From: Alligator mississippiensis
Lineage: Eukaryota > Chordata > Crocodylia > Alligatoridae
Reading direction: 5' to 3'
DNA: 64,000 nt
Assembly (NCBI RefSeq): GCF_030867095.1
Contig: NC_081824.1
Span: 351,080,203 to 351,144,202, forward strand
Below are positions 28,601 to 37,600 of the stretch, one piece after another (positions within the stretch are counted from its first letter, which is position 1; each line of letters starts with the position of its first letter). Below the pieces are notes generated by a model that saw only the letters and a list, made by a program, of their open reading frames with translations, searched no databases and was not told the DNA's origin. Made by a program: the position numbers and the translations under genes.

Positions 28601-31600
28601 GGGCCTTAGGACAAAGGGCATTCAGGCAGTCTGTTACAGGATGGAAAATGAGCTCTGGTCTCTAGATCTCTGACACGTGCTCCTAAGCATTGGACACATT
28701 TTCCAAAACTTTAATCTGAAATCCACATCGGAGCCAAAAATCATGTTTTTGAAACATCTTTGAAGACTTTGAGATGCATAACAAATAGAACCAAGGAGGT
28801 GATACTTCCCCTCTATACGGCATTGGTCAGACCACAGTTGGAGTACTGCATCCAGTTCTGGGCACCATACTTTAAGAAGGATGTGGATAACCTCGAGAGG
28901 GTCCAGAGGAGGGCCACTCGTATGGTTAAGAATTTACAGGCCAAGCCCTCTGAAAAGAGACTAAAGGACCTGGACACCTTCAGCCTCCGTAAGAGAAGGC
29001 TGAGAGGTGATCTTGTGGCCGCCTACAAATTCATCAGGGGGAGCAGCAGGGAACCAGAGATGTTCTGTTCACCAGGGCACCTCTTATTCATAGATTCATA
29101 GATATTAGGGCTGGAAGAGACCTCTGAAGATCATCGAGTCCAGTCCCCCGCCTGAAGGGCAGGAAGTCACCTGGGGTCATAGGATCCCAGCAAGATAAGC
29201 ATCCAATTTACTCTTGAAGGTGTTCAATGTGGGTGCTTGAACCACCTCCAATGGCAGGCTATTCCAGACCTTGGGGCCTCGGACAGTAAGGAAATTCTTC
29301 CTTATGCCCAGCCTGAAATGGTGTTGCAGGAGTTTATAACCATTCAATGTCGTCATCACTTGGGGAGCTCTGGTGGACAAATGTTCCCCCAGAGACTGGT
29401 GGTCACCCCTGATAAACTTATAGGTGGCCATTAGATCACCCCTGAGCCTGCGCTTTTCCAGGCTAAAGAGCCCCATAGCACTCAGCCTGTCATCATAAGG
29501 TCTGTTTTCCTGACCTCTGATCATGCGTGTGGCTCTTCTCTGGACTCTCTCAAGCTTCTCCACATCCTTTTTTAATTGTGGAGCCCAAAACTAGACGCAG
29601 TACTCCAGCTGCGGCCTCACCAAGGCCAAGTACAAGGGGAGAATGACGTCCCGGGATTTGAGAAACATCTATGGATGCAAGCCAGCGTTTTGCTCACTTT
29701 ACTAGCTGCAGCATTGCATTGCAGGCTCATGTTCATCTTGTGGTCAGTCATGACCCCCAAGTCTCTTTCTTCTGTAGTGCTAGCCAGAGTAGCACTGCTG
29801 AACCTATAAGGATGCTGCAGGTTTTTCCTCCCAAGGTGGAAAACCTTGCATTTTTCAGTGTTGAACACCATCAGGTTCTCGTCCATCCATTGGCTGAGCC
29901 TGTCCAAGTCAGCCTGGATCGTTCTCCTTTCTTCAGGTGTGGATGCTTTGCCCCAAAGTTTGGTGTCATTGGTGAACTTGGCCAGCCTGCTTCTGACTCC
30001 AATGTCCACATTATTAATGAAGATGTTGAACAATATGGACACAAGGACAGAGCCTTGGGGGACCCCACTGGTCACAGGGCACCATGACAATTGACTTCCA
30101 TCAATTACCACCCTCTGGGTCTGACCACGGAGCCAATTTCCCAGCCAGCAGATCGTGGTGGACCCAAGGCCACAATTTGCCAGTTTCACTAACAAGTGAT
30201 CATGGGGTATGGGATTGTAGCAGGACACTAAGGTGCCTGCTACTACGAGAGCCAGGAAGGCTCATCAGGTGCGGGTTGCCAGGGCAACAGGAGGCAGCAA
30301 ATGACCCACACCTGCCAGCGATCAGCTGGCTATAAGGGGCAAGGCCTGGCTCTTAGGAAGGAGAGGGACAGAGAGAGCTGAGATGAGAGGCGGTTCCCTG
30401 ACAGCAGCCAGAGGGGCAGGAGCTCCTGGAGTTAGGATGCGAGAAGCCTAATGGCAAGTACAGCTTGACCAGAGTGGAGCAATGTTGTTATAGCCAGAGG
30501 GTGTATGTTTGAGCTATAGGAGGCTCGAGTTTGTGTTGTTATGTATTACACTGAGTTTGTGTTGATGTTACACCGGTGGTTTGGGTGAGGCTATAAGGGG
30601 ATGGAGGAGGCCTCATAGGGGACTCACGGTAGAGTGAGGACCCCAGCCCCAGTGAGGGCGCGGAGTTCGGTGGTACAGACCCCAGCTCCAGAGAAGAGCC
30701 CGGTGAGAGGGCAGCACTGCAGGGAAGAGCCCGGTGAGAGGGCAGCCTTGCAGAGGGAAGAGCCCGGTGAGGGGCAGCCTTGCAGAGGGAAGAGCCCGGT
30801 GAGAGGGGCAGCCTTGCAGAGGGAAGAGCCCGGTGAGAAGGGCAGCCTTGCAGAGGGAAGAGCCCGGTGAGAGGGGCAGCCTTGCAGAGGGAAGAGCCCG
30901 GTGAGAAGGGCAGCCTTGCAGAGGGAAGAGCCCGGTGAGAAGGGCAGCCTTGCAGAGGGAAGAGCCCGGTGAGAAGGGCAGCCTTGCAGAGGGAAGAGCC
31001 CGGTGAGAAGGGCAGCCTTGCAGAGGGAAGAGCCCGGTGAGAAGGGCAGCCTTGCAGAGGGAAGAGCCCGGTGAGAAGGGCAGCCTTGCAGAGGGAAGAG
31101 CCCGGTGAGAAGGGCAGCCTTGCAGAGGGAAGAGCCCGGTGAGAAGGGCAGCCTTGCAGAGGGAAGAGCCCGGTGAGAAGGGCAGCCTTGCAGAGGGAAG
31201 AGCCCGGTGAGAAGGGCAGCCTTGCAGAGGGAAGAGCCCGGTGAGAAGGGCAGCCTTGCAGAGGGAAGAGCCCGGTGAGAAGGGCAGCCTTGCAGAGAAG
31301 GCCCACAAGGCCTAGACACGCCGGACACCCGGAGCAGGAGAACTGTGGCCAAGTGGAGGAGAGGTAGCCTCCCTACAAAAAAACATATCATCAGAGTCGT
31401 GGCGGGCGAGAATAGGAGGATGCAAATCCGAAGCTTGGCACAGTAGAGGCGGCGGCAAGGGCTAGCACGGCGACCCTGCCGTCCCTCCTGTTACAGAGAT
31501 CAAAGGCTTTTTTGAAGTCGAGATATATGACATCAATCTCTTCTTCCTTGTCCAGGTAATAGGTCACTTGGTCGTAAAAGGAAATGAGATTGGTCAAGCA

Positions 31601-34600: not shown

Positions 34601-37600
34601 GTGGGGCGAGACCCGGCCCAGCTCCCACTCAGCCACCTCCTCCCAGTCTCTAGGGGTTAACCCCCTCCCACCATGGGCCCTGCTTACCCCCGGCTGTGCT
34701 GGGGGTTGGCGGGGGGGCTCCGCAGCTGCTTGGGGGTCTCTGGGGGGTTTCGGGGGAGCGGGGGTGCAGCGGGCTTTCACCCGTGCGTCTCTCGCTGCTC
34801 CCAGAGCCCAACTCTTGGGGTAACAAGGAACAATGGTCACACACTGGCAGAGAGAGCAGATTTAGGTTAGACATCAGGAAAAACTTCACGGAAAGAGTGG
34901 CCAAAAATTGGAATGGGCTTCCAAGGGAGTTGGTGCTCTCTCCTACCTTAGGGGTCTTAAGGGGAGGCTGGATAGGCATCTGGCTGGGGTCATCTGACCT
35001 CAGCACCCTTTCCTGCCCAGGCAGGGGGTCAGACTCAATGATCTGTTGAGGTCCCTTCTGACCCTACCGTCTATCAATGTATGAGTCTTCAGAGACAACT
35101 GGTAATGGGAATGGACCTGCGCAAAGGAGAAGTTTGGATGGGTAAATTTGCTTGCTCTTTTTTAAACACACAAATTTACAAATGAGTAGCAGTGGGGAAT
35201 GCAAGAGTTGTCATGTGATGTGTTTGGCTCTTAATTAGACATTTGATGCAATGTTACCTAAAACCCAGCTCTGCAAAAATTAGTTCAAATTACTTTGGCT
35301 ATAAATGCCATCTCAGGGAGTGAAAACTAGCTGGAGGAGTACCTGAAAAGCAGCCAGGTATTTGTTGTGCAAACAGTGCACTGAGGCAGTGTGCAGAGTT
35401 GCTGTCAAGTCCAGCATTAACAGCAGCTGTAGTTTGCCTCTTTTTCAATGTTCATTGCATCTCAAATGCAGTTCAGAAAAAGTTTTCAATTGGCTGTATT
35501 TGGAGAATAGTGATGAAAACAAATGCCAAGGAGAATTTGAGCTGTTTAAAAATATGGGTAAATATAAAACAGTTTGGGGGTGAGAAAATGCAAAGCTGCT
35601 GAGTGTTTGGGGGAACCTGAAAAACAGCAGTGCCAACAGTGATAGTGCTTGGTCTGAGGTCTTGCTACTTCTGGAAAAAAACATGGAGTCTTCCCTGTGC
35701 TCTACCTTGAGATTGGGCTACTTGTCTCGCCTGCAGAAGAAACCACCAAGACCCACAGGATCTATTACGTCTCTGAGGGGAGTGCTCAGAGGCTAAACTA
35801 ACCTGCACAGAGGCCCTTCAACTCCCTAAGGCCTTTTCTTTTCTTTGTAACTCCTGGGCAGCATATTTTTAAACTCCTTATTTGTCTGTTGGTATCCCCC
35901 TCCCCATGCACACAAAGGTGGAAAGGCTTTTGGGATTTGGGGGTAAATTTCCAGAATCATATAAGTAACATAGAGTGCTAAGTCCCAAGGTCCTTTGACA
36001 TTTAGGTTCCTGAATTAGGCATTTCAGAGTTCAAGGCTGAGTCACTCCTCAAAATAGGACTGAGGAGAGTAAAGGAGCAATTTACAGTAGGGTCAAAGGA
36101 GGTTGGGCTTGACTGCATGTCGTTTGCTTCTTGGTAACATTCTTATCCCATGGTAAATATTTAATATGTCGATACCCTGAGTCGTTCATGCATCATTGAG
36201 AAATGTATCCTTAAACATATAATTTGATATGCCTGTACTTCACAGGATTCCAGGTTCCAGACTGGACCAGTAGGATCAACTTAACCCGTTAACTTGCAGT
36301 GCACTGTGTACATGCCTGTGTGTATAGTCTAAATGGAAATGTAGAGCAAGGGAGCTGAGCTTTTTCCTGCTCTGTGTAGGTGTTAAAATCCTCTGGTATG
36401 TCTTCAGAGAGCAACATTTACCTTAGGTCTTTGGTTGCAATTTATCTGAGCCACTGTTTTTGTGCAGCATGGTGTGCATTTGTTTTGTGCCTCCCTTCCC
36501 TTTCCAGAGGTGGCTGTATTTCAGTGCTACCAACTGTATTTGTGCCTTGGTTTTGCAGTGAACATATGCAGGCAGAGTACTGGGCCTACTTGAACCCCCA
36601 AGAAAGTTTATTTGGTCCTTTTGTGTCAGTGCAGGAATCTACCTGGACATCTCTGTTTTTAAGGCTCCTTCCTGTCTCTGAGATGAAAAGTGCTGTATAA
36701 ACATACAATTTTTTTGTGTGCTGTCTCAATTATGAACCTTTATTTCTTTTGTTCTTTGCTAAACTGTCCAATTCAAAGATGAAATGTATTCATGGTCTGA
36801 AATCATCTGTGTTATCTACTATTTACTGGTGCAACAGCAGGCACCCCTTTATCTGGCCTTCAGCTGTTCTTTCCTTTATGGCTGCAATAGGAAGATGAAA
36901 ATAATTTAAAAACTTGTTATTCCACTTAGAACCCGTGTAGAGGTTTACATTCCAAACATTGTAAAAACATGAAGTAATTGTCAAGAGACTGTCTTCTCTT
37001 TCTTTTGCAATCTTAGCTTCAACTTGGAATGAGTAGACTTTCTTTTAGACTACTATTTGGACCCTGGAGAGAAGACCAGCAGACTCTCCTTGTGCCTGAA
37101 GAAGGGTGCCTCTTTCTGAAAGCTTGCAAAGAAGTTTTTTCAACTTTTCAATTGGTCTAATAAGAGACACCACATTTACTTAGATAACCTTGTCTGCCTA
37201 TGTCCTTAGACCAACACAGCTACAACCAAAATCCCTGAAACATGGGTAGACTTTCTTTTGTGCTTAAAGTGGGTGGACTTTAGTGTCAGGACCGCTCCAT
37301 CTGCTCACCTGCAGCAAAACTTCCCTTATCAAAGGACAACATAAAATAGATCCCAAAAGGTTCATGAAATAGGCTTGAGAGAGGAGATGATTTCCTGTCT
37401 TGTGAGTTCTGTTGCTTGTGTTTGCATTGTATATGACTTTTCAGTAGTTAAATCTTTCCACTGCAGAATATTCTCATTAATAATTTTGTTTCTCCAGATC
37501 TCTGTTGAAGAACTGGAAAGAAGCTTAGTTATAAAGGTCAACAAAGATGCAGTTATGAAAATAGCAGTTTCAGGGGATTTGTTTACTTTTGACAAAGGAT

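Follow-up and report, generated by a model that had tools for sequence, protein, structure and literature searches.

Three nested insertions, two CR1 elements and an LTR-like unit, in one GAS6 intron of Alligator mississippiensis

A stretch of 64,000 nucleotides from Alligator mississippiensis (NC_081824.1, positions 351,080,203 to 351,144,202; hereafter the window) contains, between positions 28770 and 35083, CR1 sequence on both strands together with a 1.28-kb unit resembling a long terminal repeat (LTR). This locus raises the question of whether the pieces are chance neighbours or the nested remains of successive insertions, as a first-pass annotation had proposed. Three successive, ordinary retroelement insertions in a single intron of the GAS6 gene very probably account for the arrangement: a 5'-truncated + strand CR1, then a near-full-length - strand CR1, then a unit with TG...CA ends. 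Each part was compared with the whole window, flanks were joined by script for empty-site tests, and coding pieces were searched against Pfam and PDB. The features of the nest, whose coordinates the annotation had given correctly to within a few bases, are as follows.

28770-29085, + strand: left half of the outer CR1, 5'-truncated, comprising the 3' part of open reading frame 2 (ORF2) and terminating in the first CTCTT
29081-29085 and 34812-34816, strand not applicable: copies 1 and 2 of CTCTT, the target duplication of the inner CR1, an exact 5-bp match
29086-34811, - strand: inner CR1, near full length, interrupted by the LTR-like unit
29620-30213, - strand: inner CR1 ORF2, second reverse transcriptase piece, past the LTR-like insertion (Pfam RVT_1, E 7.6e-12)
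30211-30215 (GGGAT) and 31496-31500 (GAGAT), strand not applicable: copies 1 and 2 of the target duplication of the LTR-like unit, matching at 4 of 5 positions with one mismatch
30216-31495, either strand: LTR-like unit, TG...CA, 1,280 bp, delimited by its ends and the near-duplication
30693-31297, strand not applicable: 34-bp tandem array of 18 units in the LTR-like unit (Tandem Repeats Finder, 98% matches)
31502-31675, - strand: inner CR1 ORF2, first reverse transcriptase piece, stopping at the LTR-like insertion (...YLDFKKAF), its frame resuming in the 3' arm
32930-33340, - strand: inner CR1 ORF2, endonuclease part (Pfam Exo_endo_phos, E 7.5e-5)
33344-34147, - strand: inner CR1 ORF1, esterase part (Pfam Lipase_GDSL_2, E 1.4e-8; PDB 4c1b, 'ORF1-encoded protein', E 1.2e-12)
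34817-35083, + strand: right half of the outer CR1, comprising the end of ORF2 and the CR1 3' end

The outer and inner CR1 elements

The two + strand halves form one element, with unbroken element coordinates and relatives common to both. Elsewhere in the window, two further CR1 copies, at 8623-9206 (- strand) and 61509-62091 (+ strand), carry the sequences of both halves directly adjacent, without overlap or gap, and these uninterrupted sister copies act as internal empty sites within the same 64 kb. The left half is 81.2% identical to each of them (parts 8890-9206 and 61509-61822), and the right half 82.9% and 81.8%, respectively. Joining the halves with a single CTCTT gave the top score among the seven offsets tried, with 592 against 580 for the next best on the copy at 8623-9206 and 562 against 550 on the copy at 61509-62091. 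The reading frame passes through the join once one CTCTT is kept, just as it does in the 8.6-9.2 kb copy, and an exact match between 5-mers has a chance of 0.0017 (random 5-mer pairs, 28001-36000). The annotation had named different subfamilies or overlapping coordinates as grounds for separating the halves; neither was seen against these two copies, which served as reference with no consensus used. The outer CR1 is decayed, with several 1- to 3-base insertions or deletions relative to the two copies, so no single frame is open over its whole length.

The inner CR1, in the opposite orientation and flanked by exact CTCTT copies as the annotation had held, measures 4,441 bp exclusive of the LTR-like unit and its duplication. 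It carries the features expected of a CR1: an esterase ORF1, as known in the CR1/L2 group; an ORF2 with endonuclease, by a sub-threshold match, and reverse transcriptase; and a 3' end reading ...ATCTATGAATCTATGAAT on the minus strand, made of short octamer-like repeats and not poly(A). The N-terminal part of ORF1 lies upstream in a different frame, with an ATG near 34428 preceded by about 380 nt, as read from the frames. Read by eye, ORF1 has one or more frameshifts, and ORF2 has one or more in-frame stops together with a minimum of four frameshifts, so the element is dead and presumably inert today. In the part that they have in common, the inner and outer CR1 agree at only about 70% of positions; the closest copy of the inner CR1 within the window is a fragment at 11823-12503 (88%). 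In viral_contigs, three stretches fitted the peptide pattern of the ORF1 piece, none of the three being confirmed as a relative. The inner CR1 is a rather uncommon near-complete copy, and it fits the looser 'full-length' definition of both domains plus 3' structure, as used in PMC8665684, if the sub-threshold endonuclease match is accepted.

The LTR-like unit and its tandem array

The LTR-like unit interrupts the inner reverse transcriptase just past LDFKKAF. It opens with TGTAGCAGGA and closes with TCCTGTTACA, 9 of the 10 terminal bases being inverted, and it thus shows the TG...CA ends of a solo LTR, accompanied by a target duplication within the 4-6 bp range (GGGAT/GAGAT, 4/5). A match of at least four of five bases between 5-mers has a chance of 0.019 (random pairs, same interval). 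With one duplication copy kept, the inner CR1 frame resumes across the unit, and on inspection by eye 64 residues spanning the join are collinear with the CR1 copy at 8712-10745. The + strand has TATAA at 30331 and 30592, and the - strand has it at 30488; such boxes, together with TG...CA ends and a 5-bp duplication, usually mark an LTR. The unit is best read as a solo LTR, although this is not proven, and the designation LTR-like given by the first-pass annotation stands to that extent, no second family member occurring within the window.

The 18-unit array is the most unusual detail of the nest. Twelve of its 18 units are identical, 11 of them consecutive, and the low-coordinate end holds divergent units of 31, 33, 32 and 34 bp. 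Divergent units at one end and 11 identical ones in a row towards the other suggest a one-ended, recent expansion, and the locus may vary between individuals. The exact 34-bp unit was absent from viral_contigs, a literature search combining solo LTR, crocodile and minisatellite returned nothing, and the part of the Nile crocodile repeat study (PMC9656864) that was covered contained no 34-bp repeat. That the unit represents an LTR family not yet described, with a hypervariable 34-bp minisatellite in its LTR, is a rather improbable proposal.

Alternatives, order and age of the insertions

Several observations weigh against the reading of three successive insertions. For the inner CR1, the Exo_endo_phos match of 23 bits falls just under the curated cut-off of 24.5, and Pfam was silent for six of the nine CR1 pieces scanned (three matched), with no match for the 58-residue reverse transcriptase piece at 31502-31675 alone. 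Neither AATAAA nor ATTAAA, a polyadenylation signal being usual for an LTR and not defining, occurs in the LTR-like unit on either strand, and the 64-kb window contains no second copy of it; for these two reasons its class is only inferred. The missing polyadenylation signal is one ground for naming it LTR-like in place of LTR; the other is the criterion that a solo LTR should recur elsewhere as the paired LTRs of a proviral or Gypsy-type element. Nucleotide comparison also leaves the join at this level unfixed: the sole covering copy is about 68.6% identical, adding 1-10 bases to the join raises the pairwise score slightly (126-131 versus 125), and local scoring is flat, at 85 each for 0-10 extra bases. 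MAFFT placed no gap at the join, and the pairwise alignment placed gaps upstream of it. Nucleotide alignment thus failed as a way of fixing this join, its scores being flat or favouring extra bases; the precise position is set by the ends of the unit, its near-duplication and the reading frame.

The missing AATAAA, the nearly matching inverted ends and the lack of a second member within the window would also suit a complete non-autonomous element, of DNA transposon or small LTR type, in place of a solo LTR; the TG...CA ends, 5-bp duplication and TATAA boxes speak for an LTR, and the two parts of the unit that flank the array have no sizeable direct repeat in common, as those of a small two-LTR element would, making this alternative unlikely. 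A bacterial-type promoter and terminator scan of 30150-31560 gave no promoter-like site and one terminator-like site against 1.1 expected, Rfam gave no match in 28000-36000, and no tRNA was found in the window. A different doubt concerns the 5' end of the inner CR1. The annotation had called this element apparently full-length, which its domain content and length bear out; the end itself had no consensus comparison and no window copy extends to it, hence the wording 'near full length'. A slight 5' truncation is accordingly a possibility to be taken seriously, yet it remains the less probable reading given a length of 4,441 bp, where chicken CR1 has about 4.5 kb (PMC2734521), and the room left upstream of the ORF1 start codon. 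Independent insertion of the two + strand pieces, flanking the - strand CR1 by chance, might be entertained in a window so dense in CR1 copies; gapless collinearity of element coordinates, the nearly equal match of the two halves to each reference copy and the exact CTCTT with its join scores reduce its probability to almost nothing, and separate insertions were rejected. An assembly artefact is just as improbable: assemblers get the copy number of sequences such as the 34-bp array wrong, yet misassembly is not expected to produce target duplications and frame-preserving joins at both levels.

Three successive insertions thus remain the preferred reading. Joins, duplications and frames establish the three levels, and the order is + strand CR1, then - strand CR1, then LTR-like unit, because they lie nested one inside another, which upholds the age order of the first-pass annotation. 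In the proposed course of events, a 5'-truncated CR1 long interspersed nuclear element (LINE) would have integrated on the + strand, and a near-full-length CR1 of a different subfamily would then have entered it on the minus strand, leaving the 5-bp duplication CTCTT. Target-primed reverse transcription, the presumed mechanism, has the element's endonuclease nick the DNA and its reverse transcriptase then copy the RNA at that very site; the anatomy of the - strand CR1, near-complete with a 5-bp duplication, therefore fits such an event by a CR1. A TG...CA element would subsequently have entered the reverse transcriptase gene of the - strand CR1, again with a 5-bp duplication, and was most likely cut down to a solo LTR via recombination between its two LTRs, after which the 34-bp minisatellite would have grown inside the unit. 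All parts of the nest are probably inert at present.

Divergence between copies was converted to time as the Kimura two-parameter (K2P) distance divided by twice a rate of 3.9e-10, quoted in PMC4299795, with and without CpG sites. The joined outer CR1 gave 230-286 million years (My) against the two window copies, the inner CR1 gave 130-159 My against 11821-12503, and the two outer-CR1-like copies (8623-9206 and 61509-62091) gave 56-67 My against each other. The looseness of such values is apparent from the inner CR1 against 51724-51844, where 120 bp only yielded 212-233 My. Use of these values as insertion dates was rejected; they are between-copy distances that include subfamily differences. 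As such they agree with the nested order without proving it and are consistent with both CR1 elements being old. If the elements are as old as the divergence suggests, empty sites for both would be likelier in outgroups than among other crocodilians.

Further CR1 sequence occurs in the window. The fragment at 8712-10745 (- strand) has a 678-codon open frame with an RVT_1 match (1.6e-30) and an FADD motif seen by eye. Its 8624-9282 part is 94.5% identical over 659 bp to 61437-62091, and the fragment looks younger than the nested CR1 elements. More CR1 pieces, including the nearest window relative of the inner CR1, lie at 11019-12503, possibly in another nest.

Genomic setting and known counterparts

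Placement of the nest in a single GAS6 intron, also part of the first-pass annotation, is confirmed by flanking exons that match GAS6 structures and by the splice sites.

22523-22726, + strand: GAS6 exon part (22523-22702 matches chain 5vxz_A residues 37-93, 7.2e-30)
22727-37497, + strand: GAS6 intron holding the nest, GTGAGT...CTCCAG, 14,771 bp
37498-37665, + strand: GAS6 exon part (translation of 37495-37665 matches 5vxz_A residues 102-157, 2.3e-22)

The two exons are consecutive by codon reading, residues 94-101 being coded at 22703-22726. A further GAS6 exon part lies at 43994-44335 (Laminin_G_2, 8.4e-6), and 42952-43380 appears GAS6-like by eye, with no Pfam match. Other repeats in the window include a dispersed repeat in two copies, 47354-48069 and 57800-58572 (69%), the latter with an internal inverted repeat (57943-58034 and 58183-58271). 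An inverted repeat of about 240-250 bp at 40969-41207 and 41323-41574 (within 40969-41605; 77.6%) recurs in part at 37075-37236, and together these look like a mobile-element remnant.

The nest leaves knowledge of CR1 and of GAS6 unchanged. Its value is that of a clean case, in which the relative order of insertion can be read, with no outgroup, from the nesting together with target duplications and reading frames.

Among known elements, PDB 4c1b, which we take to be the ZfL2-1 ORF1 esterase, resembles the inner CR1 in the esterase-type ORF1 of CR1/L2-group LINEs, the comparison covering 33344-34147 only. Zebrafish ZfL2-1 inserts are described as having 5-bp duplications, with only 2 of 33 being full length, in PMC4245944. 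Chicken CR1, according to PMC2734521, is about 4.5 kb long, with ORF1, an endonuclease/reverse transcriptase ORF2 and no poly(A) tail, and a functional CR1-F produces a 5-bp target duplication. The inner CR1 is like these full-length CR1-F and CR1-B elements in size, ORF layout, non-poly(A) end and 5-bp duplication; unlike them, it carries frameshifts and was interrupted when another element inserted later. Crocodilian nested CR1 elements were used by Suh et al. (2014) for transposition-in-transposition dating, with 6,752, 8,816, 9,100 and 8,628 cases in four genomes ordering the CR1 subfamilies (PMC4316615). The present CR1 in CR1 follows the same ordering logic and shows no difference in kind from the nests in the covered part of that paper; here the inner copy is near full length and itself interrupted. 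Chong et al. (2014) reported 339,610 solo LTRs in three crocodilian genomes, their mean lengths being 1,473-1,573 bp (PMC4299795). The 1,280-bp unit falls in a similar size range and is set apart by its 34-bp, 18-unit array. Because nested CR1 elements (Suh et al.) and solo LTRs (Chong et al.) are abundant in crocodilian genomes, the three-level nest is correct but ordinary, of a kind already known and common in genomes of this type.

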